From: a virus
Reading direction: 5' to 3' (one strand)
IMG/VR virus record: IMGVR_UViG_3300031696_000072
Coordinates: 1-21,838 of that record
Length of the DNA: 21,838 nt
This document shows, piece by piece, positions 14,246 through 21,838 of the stretch. The position numbers and the translations under genes were made by a program. The first letter of the stretch is position 1, and every line of letters starts with the position of its first letter. The notes beneath the pieces were generated by a model. The model saw only the letters and a program-made list of their open reading frames with translations. It had not been told where the DNA came from and ran no database searches.

Positions 14246-14707
14246 ATGGTAAGTATACTCATGCAGTGGACTTACAAAGGCAACGAGATTGACAAAATAC
14301 TAGACGACTACGAAGGATTTGTTTATCTTATTACCAACACCACTACAGGCCAGAAATACATAGGCAAGAAACTAGCAAAGTTTAAAACTACTAAGCCACC
14401 ACTTAAAGGCAAGAAAAATAAACGGCGCGGAACTAAAGAAAGTGACTGGAGAGAATACTATGGCTCCAGTGATAGACTGAACGCAGACGTTGCAGCACTA
14501 GGCGCAGATAAATTTACAAGAGAAATACTATACCTATGTAAAGGTAGGGGCGAAATGTCCTACATAGAGGCAAGAGAACAGTTTGACAGACGTGTACTTG
14601 AAACAGATGAATACTATAATGGTATTATAAATGTTAGAGTCGGTGGATCAGACAAACTCAAACAGGCATTACTAGAACATCACATGCAGGCAAAAAAATC
14701 AATTTAA
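14246..14707 (+). CDS. GIY-YIG endonuclease, SegE-like
   Basis: A 153-residue protein with a GIY-YIG nuclease domain: GFVYLITN (about 24-31, the GIY-type strand) and KYIGKK (about 37-42, the YIG strand), then a Lys-rich segment and ESDWREYYGSS, a helix, REILYL, and a glutamate in SYIEAREQF that may be the catalytic acid. This layout resembles SegE-type freestanding homing endonucleases of T-even phages, which cut related genomes and so spread their own locus. Start uncertain: ATG 14246 (used here) or ATG 14261; both have weak ribosome sites. It lies at the end of the gp47-46 transcript, next to a non-coding region, a common setting for such elements. The gene and its flanks are unusually rich in AGGCA. 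Confidence 0.75.
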   Translation: MVSILMQWTYKGNEIDKILDDYEGFVYLITNTTTGQKYIGKKLAKFKTTKPPLKGKKNKRRGTKESDWREYYGSSDRLNADVAALGADKFTREILYLCKGRGEMSYIEAREQFDRRVLETDEYYNGIINVRVGGSDKLKQALLEHHMQAKKSI

Positions 14708-15390: not shown

Positions 15391-15765
15391 ATGAAAATCT
15401 CTGAGTTTACAGAACACGAGCAATTAGATGAATTGAGTGCTGCAGATGCCGGAAATAAAATTGGTGGTGGCGTAAGAGCTGTAGGCTCTGGAGTTAAAAA
15501 CTTTGCTAAGGGTTTTGGTCAGGGATTAATGGGTAAAAAGAATGCACCTGCAAAAAGTGCGCCGGCTGCTGCCGCAGCTCCTAAAGTAACTCCTACTAAG
15601 CCTGGTGCTCCAGCAGCTAAACCAGGGACTGCTCCAGCAGCTAAAGTAGCACAACCTGCAGCAAGTCCTAATATGGATGTAATGAAAAAGAGTATTGCAT
15701 CAATGCAACCTAAACAACGAGCAGCTATTAGACAACAAGCATCTAAAAAAGCCGGAGTAGTATAA
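15391..15765 (+). CDS. Small Ala/Pro-rich protein, putative internal head (ejected) protein
   Basis: A 124-residue protein of unknown family. Start ATG 15391 has AAGGA 8 nt upstream; an in-frame TTG at 15370 lacks such a site. Visible order: N-terminus MKISEFTEHEQLDELSAADA, resembling the capsid-targeting leaders of T4 internal proteins (MKTYQEFIAE-type), with L12-x-E14 fitting the [LI]-x-E cleavage rule of the prohead protease gp21; a Gly-rich cationic helix (about 20-45, NKIGGGVRAVGSGVKNFAKG); an Ala/Pro/Lys linker (about 50-95); and a C-terminal helical part with MDVMKKSIASMQPKQRAAIR. Its stop overlaps the next ATG by 1 nt (TAATG). It shares module order with the second half of that gene. 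Packaging in the head is inference; another virion role is possible. Confidence 0.6.
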   Translation: MKISEFTEHEQLDELSAADAGNKIGGGVRAVGSGVKNFAKGFGQGLMGKKNAPAKSAPAAAAAPKVTPTKPGAPAAKPGTAPAAKVAQPAASPNMDVMKKSIASMQPKQRAAIRQQASKKAGVV

Positions 15766-18047
15766 TGAGACTTAACGAGATCGATTTAACACAGCGTACA
15801 CTAATTACTGAAGGATGGAATGATCCTCGCTTAACACTACTTGAAACACAACATATTATTCCTTTTATCACAAATGTTGAGCGTTATATTGTAGAAGCAA
15901 AGTTAAGCCCAGAGCAAATTAGTCAATTATTTACAGATGTTGAAAAAAATGCAACAGCAGCAGGCGGCAACAGATCTTTACTTGGCAAAGGTGCAGATGT
16001 TGCTAAACTTCCTGTTAAGGCACTTAAATTTATTGACGGTCAAATTAACAAGCTAGGAGCAGCAGTACAAAAAGCTGGACCAGTTGAAAATGCAGATGCT
16101 AAGTTTGAACAACTAAAAGCTAAGATTGGTGCTAAAGACAGTAAAGTTGTTAAAGCAATACAAGGCGTTAGTGATTGGGCTAAAGCTAATCCTGGTAAAG
16201 CTAGTATTGCAGTAGCAGTATTAACCGCAGCGGCTGCTATGGCAGGCGGACCACTTGGTGGTGCGTTAGCTGGCTTTTTAGCAAGAGCAACTAAAGATTT
16301 ATTACAAGGCGAAAAACTTTCAACAGCAGCTGGCAAGTCAATGAAGACAGCAGTTCTTGGTTATCTATCAGGAAAAGCATTCCAGTTTATGTCAACCGAA
16401 TTTAAGGATTTTTTTGCTACTGGAAGCGACGAAGATGTTAAAGCAGCAGCACAAGCACTTAAAGATGCTGCTTCACAACCTGCAATAGATGCTGCAACCT
16501 TAGAAAAGGGTCCTGCATTGGATGCATGGAATGCAGCTTTTCCAGACGGAGCAATAAGAGTTGAGATTTCAAGCACTGGCACTGCTGGTAATTATTTTAG
16601 TGGCGAAGTTATGTTAACACAAGATCAAGCAGACACATATCAAGCATTAAGCGCCGCGGCTGATCAGGCAGCAAAGGATACAGGAAAAGAATTCTTAGGA
16701 TCTACAATACCTGATGCACATAGCCCCGAAGCTCGTGCTGCAACAGCCAAAGTATATGGCTTCCTAGAACAAGTTAAAGCGTCAACAGATCAGGCAGCAC
16801 TAAAAGCATTAAGAACGGCAGGAATTGAAGCAAACAATGCTATTATAGATGCAGGGCAAGAAGCACTAAACGATCCTGAACTTAAAGCACAAATTGCACA
16901 ACTTACAGGCGATGCAGCAAAAGACGTCGAAACAATGAGCACTATTGCTGACATTGCTGCACCACTCGGTCAAGGTGCTGTTACAGGTGCTGCATCAAAC
17001 AATAAAAAATCAACTAAAGAAGAAAGTAAAAATCTTTCTTCACTACAAATTAAAACTATTATAGAATGGTGTGACCAATCACCGGCTGTTATACTTGCAG
17101 AAGGTCCATTGGATGCAATTAAAAAAGGCGCAGCATCAGCTGGAAACGCACTTAAAAAAGGCGCAGCAGCAGTTGGGGCAAAAGCAGCAAAGGTTAGCAA
17201 GAACATAACAACTAAAGTTACTGCTGACAAGATGCAACAAGCATGGGTTAAGGCAGGTAAGCCAACTGACAGTGATGCTGTTGCAAACATACTAAGACAA
17301 CAAGGCGTTGATGATAAAGTGTTAGCGCCAGTTTACAAAACACTAGGAGCAAAACTTCCGCCAGCGCCAGTTGCAGCAGATCCAAAAGCAGCAGCAAAGC
17401 CAGGAGCAGCACCAACAGCAGCACCGGGTGCAGAGCCAGCAGCAACATCAGGAGAAGCACCCACAGCAGCACCCACAGCAGCACCCACAGCAGCACCTAC
17501 AGCAGCACCTGCAGCAGGAGCAGCACCTACAGCAGCATCAGGAATGGACTTTAAAGCTGTTCAACAAGCTGTTGCTAAACTATCACCGGAAGATGCAACA
17601 GCACTTGTGCAACATATTGATTCGCTTGAAAAAGCAGGTATGAAGGCAGCGGGCGCCAAACCAGCACCTAAAAACGCAGCAGCCGGCGACACATTTGAAA
17701 AAGCTAAAGGCGATATACGTAAAGTACAAGGTGGACAGAAACCTATGCCACCGAAGACAGCAGCTACTATTGCAAGTGATCTTGCTAAACTAGCTAAAGG
17801 TGATAAAGAAAGTGGAGTTGCAGCAGCACAAAAAATTATGACGTTTGCTAAAGCAGGAGTTGATATTAGTAAGCAACAACAAGCTTGGGTTGCAAATGCT
17901 AAAGCAGGCGAAAGATTCCTAACTCAAAGTGTTTACTATGAAATTACTAAGATGTTAAAAGAGCATAATTTAAGTTGGAGTGATTTAGGAATGCGTGTAC
18001 ACTTACTAGAAGGTACTAATAGTATGTTTGGAATAAGCTATATTTAA
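15765..18047 (+). CDS. Large Ala-rich protein, putative internal head/virion protein
   Basis: A 760-residue protein of unknown family. The N-terminus MRLNEIDLTQRTLITEGWND again resembles a capsid-targeting leader, with I14-T-E16 before G17 as a possible gp21-type cleavage site; further [LI]-x-E-G sites occur at L444-A-E446 and L747-L-E749. A hydrophobic Gly/Ala segment (about 145-173) could span or disrupt a membrane. The part after 446 (GPLDAIKKGAASAGNALKKG) is a cationic Gly/Ala helix, then comes an Ala/Pro linker (about 532-590) with APTA repeats and a helical module MDFKAVQQAVAKLSPEDATA, the same order as in the preceding 124-aa protein. The short motif QQAWV occurs twice (about 491 and 705). 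GGAG lies 7 nt before ATG 15765. The gene meets the opposite-strand small gene tail to tail. Confidence 0.6.
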   Translation: MRLNEIDLTQRTLITEGWNDPRLTLLETQHIIPFITNVERYIVEAKLSPEQISQLFTDVEKNATAAGGNRSLLGKGADVAKLPVKALKFIDGQINKLGAAVQKAGPVENADAKFEQLKAKIGAKDSKVVKAIQGVSDWAKANPGKASIAVAVLTAAAAMAGGPLGGALAGFLARATKDLLQGEKLSTAAGKSMKTAVLGYLSGKAFQFMSTEFKDFFATGSDEDVKAAAQALKDAASQPAIDAATLEKGPALDAWNAAFPDGAIRVEISSTGTAGNYFSGEVMLTQDQADTYQALSAAADQAAKDTGKEFLGSTIPDAHSPEARAATAKVYGFLEQVKASTDQAALKALRTAGIEANNAIIDAGQEALNDPELKAQIAQLTGDAAKDVETMSTIADIAAPLGQGAVTGAASNNKKSTKEESKNLSSLQIKTIIEWCDQSPAVILAEGPLDAIKKGAASAGNALKKGAAAVGAKAAKVSKNITTKVTADKMQQAWVKAGKPTDSDAVANILRQQGVDDKVLAPVYKTLGAKLPPAPVAADPKAAAKPGAAPTAAPGAEPAATSGEAPTAAPTAAPTAAPTAAPAAGAAPTAASGMDFKAVQQAVAKLSPEDATALVQHIDSLEKAGMKAAGAKPAPKNAAAGDTFEKAKGDIRKVQGGQKPMPPKTAATIASDLAKLAKGDKESGVAAAQKIMTFAKAGVDISKQQQAWVANAKAGERFLTQSVYYEITKMLKEHNLSWSDLGMRVHLLEGTNSMFGISYI
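17457..17516 (+). repeat. Five 12-nt tandem units encoding an Ala-Pro-Thr-Ala linker
   Basis: The unit GCACCCACAGCA occurs three times exactly (17457-17492), followed by two variants (GCACCTACAGCA and GCACCTGCAGCA). It lies in frame in the Ala/Pro linker of the 760-aa protein. Exact copies suggest recent slippage, so linker length probably varies between related phages. Confidence 0.85.
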
Positions 18048-18250
18048 AAGAAAGGCATTCCGCTTTTCTTAGTAGTTTCTAGATTCTCTTTAACGATATC
18101 ACTAATAAGAGACCTGTCTTCCCAGGTTAAGCAAAAACCCTCATCTAACGTAACACTGCCACGCATGTACCAACAAAGTTTTAAGATTTCACTCTTAATT
18201 TCTTTTTGTTGGTTTTCCATGTGTTTGACTTCTTCTAGGATTTCAGCCAC
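18044..18250 (-). CDS. gp26 -1 frameshift extension / small tail-assembly chaperone
   Basis: A 68-codon frame after gp26 encoding a helical, charged protein (MAEILEEVKHMENQQKEI, then LCWYMRGSVTLDEGFCLTWE and ENLETTKKSGMPFF). The helix, a WYMRG turn and an ENLETTKKSG end resemble C-terminal extensions of tail-assembly chaperones. Taken alone it would start at GTG 18250, but the nearest AAGGA is about 14 nt away, too far. The same frame is open upstream to 18274, where gp26 carries T TTT TTC, so it is probably translated mainly as a -1 fusion to gp26, joined through RIRILAWSV. Its stop overlaps that of the 760-aa gene on the other strand by 3 nt. Confidence 0.7.
   Translation of the reverse strand: MAEILEEVKHMENQQKEIKSEILKLCWYMRGSVTLDEGFCLTWEDRSLISDIVKENLETTKKSGMPFF
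18048..18070. terminator. Bidirectional terminator-like hairpin between convergent genes
   Basis: AAGAAAGGC (18048-18056) pairs with GCTTTTCTT (18062-18070) over a 5-nt loop: 9 pairs, one of them G-T. On the minus strand it is followed by TTTAAAT. It overlaps the last codons of the small minus-strand gene and lies immediately after the stop of the plus-strand 760-aa gene, so it could end both transcripts. The stem is AT-rich, so strength is uncertain. Confidence 0.45.
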
Positions 18251-18267
18251 GGACCAAGCTAAAATCC

Positions 18268-19149
18268 TTATGCGAAAAAATTTGATTGATCAAACGTGAT
18301 TGGAACTTCCCAATCCTTAGGTGCTCCGTTTTTAACATCTTCGTCCGGTGAAGTTACCTTTATCGGCTCTAATGTAAACTTAGTACGCTGTGCTTCTAAA
18401 TGATCTATAATAGTAGTGTAAAAATCTTTGTCAGCATTATCAATAAAATCATCAATGTGTGTTTGATTTGTAACTACTGTATCACCTATTGATATTGATG
18501 CAATACTTTTAGCTAGTGTGCTAACAGTTAAATCAGTAAGCTTTTTAAAACTTACATTAAACTTTGCTAGTTTTTCTGAGTCTGGCATTTCGTCATCGTT
18601 AACTAAACTAAAAATACGCTGCTCTTCAAAAGTTTTTAAACTTGCATCAGTAAATTCTTTGTATGTTAATGGGCGAATTAAAATTTTCATATCGTTAATA
18701 TCTAAATTAACTTCAAACTCTTTAGTAACAAGGTTGTTAAGTAATTGACGTAAGTCTACATCAAACTTACGCTCGTCACCTATGTTTGGAACTTTTGTAG
18801 TAATTTCCATGCTATCACCGTATGTTGCAATACGAATAGCAATAAGTATTGCATCTAAATCAATACTAGGCATGCACCAAGGATTAGTAATGTTAGGAAC
18901 ACAACTTTTAACAACGTCAACAGTTGCAGCACCGTTAAGAAGCGCATCTGGTGTTTTCATTGTTAGTTCGTCTTTGGCTGTCATAGCAAATACAGGATAT
19001 TCACCGTTCTGAGTAATTTCAATAGATCCCTCAGGGTAAAACATTCCTTTACTTGGAAGCGTGATATAGACTTTAGGTTGTCTAAAATATTTTCTTAATG
19101 GATTTTGTTCCATATTACCTGAATATTCCGATGGGTTAAACTCTGACAT
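18268..19149 (-). CDS. 26: Baseplate hub assembly protein gp26-like
   Basis: A 293-residue protein of the T4 gp26-type baseplate/assembly family. Recognisable features are NPLRKYFRQPKVYITLPSKG (about 17-36), YPEGSIEITQNGEYPVFAMT, the helix following TPDALLNGAATVDVVKSCVP, and DLDAILIAIRIATYGDSMEI (about 98-117), a pattern standard among marine T4-like gp26 proteins. T4 gp26 has 208 residues; the extra C-terminal part is helical and acidic. ATG 19149 has GGAG 6 nt upstream and a late-type box further up. The codons before the stop are TTT TTC GCA TAA preceded by T, giving a slippery heptamer that leads into the following small frame. The product probably acts during assembly, not in the finished virion. 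Confidence 0.82.
   Translation of the reverse strand: MSEFNPSEYSGNMEQNPLRKYFRQPKVYITLPSKGMFYPEGSIEITQNGEYPVFAMTAKDELTMKTPDALLNGAATVDVVKSCVPNITNPWCMPSIDLDAILIAIRIATYGDSMEITTKVPNIGDERKFDVDLRQLLNNLVTKEFEVNLDINDMKILIRPLTYKEFTDASLKTFEEQRIFSLVNDDEMPDSEKLAKFNVSFKKLTDLTVSTLAKSIASISIGDTVVTNQTHIDDFIDNADKDFYTTIIDHLEAQRTKFTLEPIKVTSPDEDVKNGAPKDWEVPITFDQSNFFA
18274..18280 (-). promoter_or_regulatory. Slippery heptamer T TTT TTC for a -1 frameshift
   Basis: On the minus strand, 18280 to 18274 reads T TTT TTC in the gp26 frame (X XXY YYZ form), two codons before the gp26 stop at 18270-18268. After a one-base slip the next codons are CGC ATA AGG and the frame stays open through the 68-codon extension to 18044. 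Geometry and motif match classic tail-assembly frameshift sites. Confidence 0.68.
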
Positions 19150-19160
19150 GATTCTCTCCG

Positions 19161-19168
19161 TATAAATA
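19161..19168 (+). promoter_or_regulatory. T4-type late promoter for the tape measure gene
   Basis: A perfect TATAAATA, the T4 late consensus recognised by gp55, lies 61 nt before the GTG start of the tape measure gene, in the divergent spacer. There is no -35 match upstream, as expected for late promoters. Confidence 0.82.
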
Positions 19169-19228: not shown

Positions 19229-21838
19229 GTGGCTGATGAAGTAGAAATTGGTAATGTAGGCGGTAATGGTGTAGCTAGTGAAGTTACGCTACTTCGTCTT
19301 GCTTCTGCGGTAGAAAAAATGGGCGGTGGTGGCGCAGGCGGAAAGAAAGCTGCTGCTGGCGTTGCTGATTTAGGTGCCCAAGCTGGCAATGCAGCAGACG
19401 ACATTGAAGATTTACAAGACGCCACTGACAAAACTACTAAATCTTTTCAAGATGCTGGTCATGCAGCAGGTAAGCTTTCACGATCGTTACTAGGCGCAGC
19501 CGGAAACGGCATATCAGGACTGTTGAGTAGCTTTGGTGGCTTAGCCAAAGAGGCCCTTATGGGCGGCGAAAGCATGAGCGACTTTACAAGGCATATTCCG
19601 ATAGTCGGTAGTCTGCTAGGTGGCTTGACAGGAATATTTGATCAAAATTTAGATAGCTTTAGACAAATGAGTAACTCAGGTGCAGTATTTGGCGAAGGGC
19701 TTAATGGCTTACGAAATATGGCAGCTAGTGCAGGCATTCCGTTAGGTGAGTTTTCAGACATAGTTGCTGAAAACAGTCAGAGAATGACATACTTTGGTGG
19801 AGGCGTTGCAAACGGTACTGTGCAGTTTGCAAAATTGGCAGGAGAATTAAGAAATGGACCTGGCAGGGCATTAATGGGAATAGGTTATACTGCTCAAGAT
19901 TTAAATGAATCATTAATTGATTATGCAGAATTTAGTCAACGTCAAGCAAGGGCTGAAGGTAAACAAGCTAAACTAACTGCCGATGGAGCAGCTAACTATC
20001 TTGAAACAGTTGACCAATTAGCAGCAATAACAGGTAAGCGCAGAGATCAAATTAAAGAAGAAATGAATCAAGTCAATCAAGACTCGAGATCACGCGCAGC
20101 AATAGCAAGGATGACTGATGATCAACAGTTAAAATTCGCAGCTAACTTATCACAAACACCAGATGCTCTTGCTGATGCACTAAAAGATATGGCTGATGGC
20201 GTAGCAAATACTCCACTGGCACAAGGTTTACTAACAGCATCTGATACATTTAGAGAGTCATCAAAAGATATTCAAAATATGAGTGCAGCTGAATATAGTA
20301 CATTTATGGTCAATGTTAGAAAAGATCTTGATGAAAAATCCGCAGGAATGAAAGAAGGCTTAGATGCTGTTATTGCAAGCGGAACTGGATATGGACAAGC
20401 ATTAGATTTGGCCGGCACTTTAGCAGATAAAGTATTAGTAACTGAAGAGCAAGCTTTAGAAATAACAAAAAAGAAAAAAGCTGAAGCAGCTAAAGATGCA
20501 GGGCAAAAAGGTTTTAGTAATGCACTACGTGAAATTCGTACTAATTTAATGTCTGCATTTTCAATGGGCCCAGATAGTCCATTAGGTGCAATGGGATTAG
20601 GCCTTGAATCGTTTACTGGAATGTTTACAAAGTTGGTAGCAAGTGATGGATTCAAATCTGTAATAGACGGGCTTAAAGATGTAATGACGCAAGTAATGGG
20701 CGCATTTAAACAATTCCTTGCTGACTTTACTCAGTTTGATCTTAAAACAGCATTGTTCGGAGGAACAAAGGAAGTTGAAGGCGGACCAGGCGGCTCCCAA
20801 GAAGTTGAGGTTGCTGGACTTTTTGGAAACTTAATGAATGAAGATGGTCCATTAATGATGGCTTTCCAAGATGCAGCTGATTGGATTTCAACAAACGTTG
20901 GTCCTGTTATAGGCGATATGTTTAGTGGCATGATTAGTAATCTGTTACCTGACTGGGACACTATTGTTGTTGGAGCATTAGCAGGAATTGGCGCCATCAT
21001 AGCAGCACCGTTTATTGGCGCAGCCTTAATAGCAGCAGCACCGTTCTTAGCAATATTTGCAGGCATATCAGGAACAATTGCGGCAATTACTATTGGATTT
21101 ACTGCAATAGCAGCAATGTTTTCTTGGGAATTTATTAAAGAAAATATAAACGATGCATGGAATTCAATAACAGGAATATTTACAGGAATAACAGATTGGT
21201 GGGATACTGTAGATCTTATGACTCCGTTAACAGAGATGTGGGATAAGGTTACAGGATTCTTTACTTTTGGAGAAGAAGGATTTAGTATATCTGCGCTGTT
21301 TGGTAAAGCATGGGACTTAGTAACAGGATATTTTTCTTTTGCAGGCAAAGTATGGACAGGCATTGGTGGATTGTTTGATGCAGCTTGGACAAAGGTTACA
21401 GGATGGCTAGGCTTTGGTGATAAAACATGGAGCCTCAGTAAAATATTTACTGATGCATGGGCAACTATTACAGGATTTTTTACTTTTGGCGAAAGTTCGT
21501 TTAGTATTAGTCAACTAGCAACTGATGCATGGGCAACTATTACAGGATTCTTTAGTTTCGGTGAAAGTTCGTTTAGTATTAGTCAACTAGCAACTGATGC
21601 TTGGAAAACTGTAACTGGATTCTTTAGTTTTGGCAGCGGCGAAGAAGGCACAGGATTTAGCATTAGTCAATTAGCATCAGACGCATGGTCAACTATTACA
21701 GGATTCTTTAGTTTTGAAGGCTTTGAGATGCCAAGCATTTCAGGTATGTTCCAAGGTATAATAGACAAGGTTAAAGGATTCTTTAGTTTCGATTTTAAAA
21801 TGCCTAACTTTAAATCATTTTTACCTAAATGGATGGGC
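19229..21838 (+). CDS. Tail tape measure protein, C-terminus cut by the window edge
   Basis: 870 codons without a stop, from GTG 19229 (AAGGA 7 nt upstream) to the window end. The length, the helical Gln/Ala/Asp-rich body, a hydrophobic segment at about 579-632 (GALAGIGAIIAAPFIGAALI onward) and Trp/Phe-containing repeats identify a tape measure protein, which sets tail length and lines the tube before DNA passage. From about residue 632 the protein consists of repeats of the form DAW-x-x-[IV]TGFF-[ST]F, separated by linkers such as FSISQLA; at least eight degenerate copies are visible. T4 gp29, the functional equivalent, has 590 residues; this one is at least half as long again, predicting a longer tail or an extra C-terminal module. 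ATG codons nearby are in another frame that stops at once, so GTG is the start. Confidence 0.85.
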   Translation, partial: MADEVEIGNVGGNGVASEVTLLRLASAVEKMGGGGAGGKKAAAGVADLGAQAGNAADDIEDLQDATDKTTKSFQDAGHAAGKLSRSLLGAAGNGISGLLSSFGGLAKEALMGGESMSDFTRHIPIVGSLLGGLTGIFDQNLDSFRQMSNSGAVFGEGLNGLRNMAASAGIPLGEFSDIVAENSQRMTYFGGGVANGTVQFAKLAGELRNGPGRALMGIGYTAQDLNESLIDYAEFSQRQARAEGKQAKLTADGAANYLETVDQLAAITGKRRDQIKEEMNQVNQDSRSRAAIARMTDDQQLKFAANLSQTPDALADALKDMADGVANTPLAQGLLTASDTFRESSKDIQNMSAAEYSTFMVNVRKDLDEKSAGMKEGLDAVIASGTGYGQALDLAGTLADKVLVTEEQALEITKKKKAEAAKDAGQKGFSNALREIRTNLMSAFSMGPDSPLGAMGLGLESFTGMFTKLVASDGFKSVIDGLKDVMTQVMGAFKQFLADFTQFDLKTALFGGTKEVEGGPGGSQEVEVAGLFGNLMNEDGPLMMAFQDAADWISTNVGPVIGDMFSGMISNLLPDWDTIVVGALAGIGAIIAAPFIGAALIAAAPFLAIFAGISGTIAAITIGFTAIAAMFSWEFIKENINDAWNSITGIFTGITDWWDTVDLMTPLTEMWDKVTGFFTFGEEGFSISALFGKAWDLVTGYFSFAGKVWTGIGGLFDAAWTKVTGWLGFGDKTWSLSKIFTDAWATITGFFTFGESSFSISQLATDAWATITGFFSFGESSFSISQLATDAWKTVTGFFSFGSGEEGTGFSISQLASDAWSTITGFFSFEGFEMPSISGMFQGIIDKVKGFFSFDFKMPNFKSFLPKWMG
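21449..21676 (+). repeat. 72-nt tandem repeat in the tape measure gene
   Basis: Units at 21449-21520 and 21521-21592 are both 72 nt and differ at only four positions; a third, with a 12-nt insertion, spans 21593-21676. Each encodes TDAW-x-TxTGFF-x-FG, a short linker and FSISQLA (24 or 28 residues). A more diverged copy follows (SDAWSTITGFFSF) and several precede it from about 21150. High DNA identity indicates recent duplication. Confidence 0.88.

Follow-up and report, generated by a model that had tools for sequence, protein, structure and literature searches.

Does the gp26-like gene of this viral genome encode one protein or two? The stretch analysed here, referred to as the window, comprises 21,838 nucleotides (positions 1 to 21,838 of IMG/VR virus record IMGVR_UViG_3300031696_000072), and carries on its minus strand a gp26-like gene (18268..19149) whose 293-amino-acid product matches PHROG 150, baseplate hub (E 6.5e-15), and PF12322 (E 7.5e-12; 45.8 bits for a cut-off of 24.5), the latter indicating sequence homology to the T4 gp26/gp51 family. 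It also aligns with cyanophage gp26 by hhalign (E 1.1e-6). The gene ends, on the minus strand, with TCA AAT TTT TTC GCA TAA GGA: a slippery heptamer, T_TTT_TTC (18274..18280), lies in the gp26 frame, and a single sense codon (GCA) separates it from the TAA at 18270-18268. We propose, with a probability of about 0.9, that gp26 carries a programmed -1 frameshift, and that its two products, gp26 alone and the gp26/-1 fusion, serve as the short and the long isoform of a tail assembly chaperone. That two proteins are made from one gp26 message through this conserved slippery site is, judging from the DNA, almost certain.

The -1 frame follows an upstream stop (18292-18290) and is open from 18289, ending at 18044. 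Counted from the slip, it adds a minus-strand extension of 77 codons (18047..18277, stop 18044-18046), which is our candidate for the C-terminal domain of the long form (TAC-NC), the 0-frame product being the candidate short form (TAC-N). The original prediction, made from the letters of the window, had already recognized the in-frame site and the stop-free passage into the -1 frame; it placed the heptamer two codons before the stop, which is accurate to one codon, and gave the frame 68 codons, a length that holds from its first GTG. Its remark that the small frame has no well-placed ribosome site is borne out: the only upstream AGGA lies 14 nucleotides from the GTG at 18250, too distant to serve it, and the ATG at 18220 is preceded by a weak AGAAG approximately 11 nucleotides upstream.

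Site and frame are both conserved. As a query against viral contigs, an alignment of all 13 distant gp26 proteins proved too heterogeneous, and a close pair, the gp26 of the window and that of locus L002, was used instead, yielding 80 marine loci with 58-100% identity, one of which encodes a gp26 100% identical to that of the window (L024). All 80 carry the in-frame heptamer one codon ahead of the gp26 stop; in the 79 that are not cut by a contig end, the length of the -1 frame is 77 codons without exception. The same T_TTT_TTC followed by an open -1 frame is found in 80/80 relatives of the gp26 of cyanophage S-PM2. Beyond these two sets, 18 more distant phages carry the site, as T_TTT_TTC (Atu_ph07, Phosso, Vibrio 2.275.O, PA5oct, RaK2, 121Q, SCTP-2, BF, GAP32, P19, ACP17, VH7D, OLIVR6 and P-HM1), T_TTT_TTT (XacN1, RAS14 and pf16) or T_TTT_TTG (Rhizobium phage RHph_I1_9), and so does a KVP40-like contig (L201). 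The comparison of homologues that had been suggested with the original prediction thus finds heptamer and -1 frame kept across marine, cyanophage and distant relatives. In total, 20 deep lineages share T_TTT_TT(C/T/G), a count that leaves out a chance internal heptamer in T4 gp51 (21 with it). The two phenylalanines are preceded by different residues in these lineages (N, H, Y, S, R, A, D), but without exception that residue has a codon with a final T and the first phenylalanine is encoded by TTT. From each gene's own codon use, the probability of such conservation would be ~1e-15 if the lineages were independent, which is only partly true. By these counts, the slippery site is real and far beyond chance.

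A few relatives depart from the pattern. Stenotrophomonas phage IME-SM1 (L187) has five T (GATTTTTCGG, ~2219-2224) versus six in its relatives, and its annotated gp26 continues in a frame that bypasses the usual stop; this may be a true variant or a homopolymer error in the record. The gp26 genes of two Ackermannviridae, Vibrio phage VP-1 (L190) and Serratia phage Kevin (L191), are without T_TTT_TTN and retain a -1 frame that stays open over a long distance; slippage there would probably occur on shorter T runs (GTTTTTC, GGTTTTC). Most of the jumbo-phage gp26 proteins in our alignment A1 (L004-L014) have C-terminal CxxC-type motifs resembling zinc ribbons, one of which directly precedes the FF slip site; the marine clade is without them.

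Could the -1 frame instead be an independent small gene that either has its own start (GTG 18250 or ATG 18220) or relies on termination-reinitiation at the end of gp26? Depositors have annotated it as such in several phages, and an ATG overlapping the gp26 stop could permit a stop-coupled restart in a few relatives (ATGA in Atu_ph07 and Phosso, TAATG in 121Q and VH7D). We compared, codon by codon, 50 distinct marine sequences with more than 5% mutual DNA difference. Differences at codon positions 1/2/3 amount to 0.32/0.14/0.42 in codons 1-8 of the -1 frame and to 0.30/0.19/0.53 in codons 48-76; on this codon-position signature, the -1 frame is under protein-coding constraint from the first codon after the slip, which speaks against a separate gene. 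Start codons are not shared among the 50: 22 have an ATG at codon 19 and 18 a GTG at codon 9, and the only universal ATG (codon 37) falls within the conserved WYMRG core. Among the distant relatives, PA5oct has no ATG, GTG or TTG in the 74 codons of its -1 frame, P19 has a lone start codon at codon 32 of 57, and RaK2 has none before codon 31, so that no start codon common to the relatives was found upstream of the conserved core of the -1 frame. The expectation, stated at the outset, that homologues would lack a start of their own for this frame therefore holds for most of them, with the ATGA and TAATG phages as exceptions. A separate gene would furthermore leave the conservation of the heptamer without a reason, and we regard it as improbable.

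Downstream of the site, the message is predicted to fold into a hairpin (18237..18268, minus strand) consisting of a 12-bp stem (18268-18257 / 18248-18237) and an 8-nucleotide loop, 5 nucleotides 3' of the heptamer, with an energy of -16.5 kcal/mol (z -2.55). In the 50 marine relatives, 88.2% of the cells of an 11-pair stem are paired, versus 32-50% with the partner displaced by 1-3 columns. The covariation score (0.203 versus 0.130 in shuffled alignments) and the number of cells changed on both sides (28 versus 11.9) were reached in 0/500 shuffles each; neither the count of doubly changed pairs (4) nor that of pair types exceeded the shuffles in this set. The clearest compensatory pair, 22-35, occurs as GC (23), UA (10) and CG (5), and its bases occupy first and second codon positions, so that each exchange alters both amino acids at once (Ala..Ala, Pro..Gly, Ser..Asp); this is not something one would obviously expect from protein constraint alone. 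In PA5oct, S-PM2, P-HM1 and pf16, too, folding of the individual sequences places a strong hairpin after the site. Given this covariation in the marine clade and the fixed spacing, the hairpin is likely to be a frameshift stimulator.

The hairpin also bears on a second alternative, in which RNA polymerase would stutter on the T run and produce mRNAs one base longer or shorter. All lineages do have six to seven consecutive T at the site. Six-base runs are however short for polymerase slippage, and a T run held in one codon phase, followed at fixed spacing by a compensated hairpin, is the layout of a ribosomal -1 frameshift; we consider polymerase stuttering slightly less probable still than a separate gene.

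As a chance control, we looked for the heptamer in the last ~12 codons of open reading frames (ORFs) of at least 100 codons in 16 sequences. It occurs in 13/245, with -1 frames of 71-80 codons in the ten gp26 cases and of 3-9 codons in the three other ORFs. Coincidence of a poly-T run with an open frame, or an error of assembly, is therefore refuted by the conservation of site and frame, for although single sites can arise in AT-rich phage DNA, as in these three unrelated ORFs, their -1 frames are very short and the gp26 pattern recurs in ~160 contigs as well as in GenBank genomes.

With a programmed frameshift, most ribosomes would read through T_TTT_TTC and one more codon to the stop, releasing the 293-amino-acid short protein. 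A minority, delayed by the hairpin, would slip one base back on the heptamer and continue in the -1 frame, giving a long protein of ~370 amino acids with the junction NFF-RIR; in S-PM2, the fusion across the FF-R junction would read ...QSFFRISMFYNN... If lambda G/G-T and P2 E/E+E' are a guide, the short product would be TAC-N and the long one TAC-NC, and both would be loaded onto the product of the neighbouring gene, the tape-measure protein. We infer slippage in vivo, an isoform ratio and the chaperone role from the site and its open frame, their conservation, the coding constraint reaching back to the slip, the unshared starts, the covarying hairpin and the tape-measure neighbour.

This neighbour (19229..21838, plus strand; PHROG 58, tail length tape measure protein, E 7.4e-21) extends past the window end. 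It adjoins gp26 but is divergent from it rather than downstream on the same strand; a tape-measure gene is nevertheless the expected partner of a tail chaperone, and therefore supports the chaperone role of gp26. The AlphaFold2 model of gp26 (predicted local distance difference test, pLDDT, 83.7) aligns with the HK97 chaperone gp13 (2ob9_A) over 101/107 residues (Z 5.8, root-mean-square deviation 4.8), at rank 47 among unrelated chains, and a Foldseek search of the PDB with the same model gave nothing significant. The extension is modelled as a helical hairpin (pLDDT 87.3) with no significant match in BFVD, where the Moogle tape measure chaperone appears as one weak hit (E 4.2). Pfam and PHROG scans of the window extension gave no match, and it matches the extensions of Atu_ph07 and Phosso. 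The window and cyanophage extensions agree in position, size and pattern, and in its behaviour the extension resembles the second domain of a tail chaperone.

Several observations weigh against our proposal. The HK97 chaperone match is modest and appears only in the VIA list; the window extension has no detectable homology to the cyanophage/gp51 extension (hhalign probability 0.5%); no consensus hairpin emerged from a gapless cyanophage alignment, the alignment-based hairpin being that of the marine clade alone; and the restart-compatible ATG of the four phages named above would fit a separate gene.

Three further features of the region were noted. A 760-amino-acid alanine-rich ORF (15765-18047, plus strand) converges on gp26 and shares its last four bases with the end of the -1 frame, in a tail-to-tail arrangement. 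A T4-late-promoter-like sequence, TATAAATA (19161-19168, plus strand), is located between gp26 and the tape-measure gene; it is a weak candidate with one match in the window, which is below chance expectation. A gene for a SegE-like GIY-YIG endonuclease (14246-14707, plus strand; PF19835, E 4.4e-36) is found in a recombination/late-transcription cluster beside the gp26 locus.

What, then, of T4 itself? PF12322 includes both T4 gp26 and T4 gp51. T4 gp26 aligns with cyanophage gp26 over its full length, to the last residues (E 3.6e-11), and has neither heptamer nor extension, which corrects the framing of the original prediction around T4 gp26. Residues 206-245 of T4 gp51, on the other hand, match the cyanophage -1 extension (E 7.4e-6), a frame that cyanophage annotators already label 'gp51' as a separate gene. 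PHROG 634, named baseplate hub assembly catalyst, matches this same extension at positions 56-116, which implies that at least part of that family consists of C-terminal pieces of a frameshifted protein, not of free genes. Two PF12322 genes are present in T4-type genomes (T4, G003 and G004), which are without the slippery site, and one each in the ten site-bearing genomes searched, in S-PM2 and in Atu_ph07. The simplest account of these matches would be that T4 swapped the frameshift for a duplication, one copy providing the short form and the other a fused long form; which way the change went is read from this distribution and not from a rooted tree. Much more tentatively, and with the odds rather against it, gp26 frameshifting, accompanied by a covarying hairpin in the marine clade, may be the widespread and probably ancestral condition of the whole T4-like superfamily (cyanophages, KVP40-like, marine and jumbo phages), with duplication into gp26 and gp51 in the T4 lineage, a scenario that would not have been laid out before.

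Vladimirov and colleagues reportedly identified the T4-like chaperone genes in 2022 (Virology 566:9-15), presumably gp26/gp51 (PF12322). A passage of a more recent article (PMC12846349, 2025) refers to Vladimirov et al. 2022 when it mentions poly-T slippery sites in the TAC-N genes of T4-like phages. The tie between gp26 and the chaperone system, anticipated by the original prediction, is thus supported, and on the strength of that passage it is probably not new; the window frameshift probably belongs to an already known type of chaperone recoding, and what may be new is the covarying hairpin, together with how broadly the relatives were surveyed. If our proposal is true, hundreds of genomes of cyanophages, marine phages and jumbo phages would need their annotation corrected: the long chaperone form is missing there, and its tail is now filed as a separate 'hypothetical protein' or as 'gp51'. 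It would also give a reason why T4 requires gp51 in addition to gp26, a confused issue in the assembly of the T4 hub, and would offer a natural comparison between two routes to an isoform ratio, recoding and gene duplication.

In lambda and P2, a tail assembly chaperone gene lies beside the tape-measure gene and yields a short and a -1 frameshifted long product, for which the literature cites Xu 2004 and Christie 2002. The P2 slippery site, T_TTT_TTG, is the form found in Rhizobium phage RHph_I1_9. Unlike P2 E/E+E' and lambda G/G-T, the window has a first product approximately twice the size and a divergent tape-measure gene. It also differs from T4, in which two separate PF12322 genes without a slippery site stand in place of one gene with a -1 frameshift. 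There is also a likeness to the Vandenendeviridae and Andersonviridae: according to a passage of PMC12846349, their TAC-N carries a conserved poly-T -1 site at its 3' end, and annotators routinely list the open -1 frame as a gene of its own. As far as that passage goes, site position and annotation of the -1 frame are alike, whereas the motif (GTTTTT) and the phage group are different.
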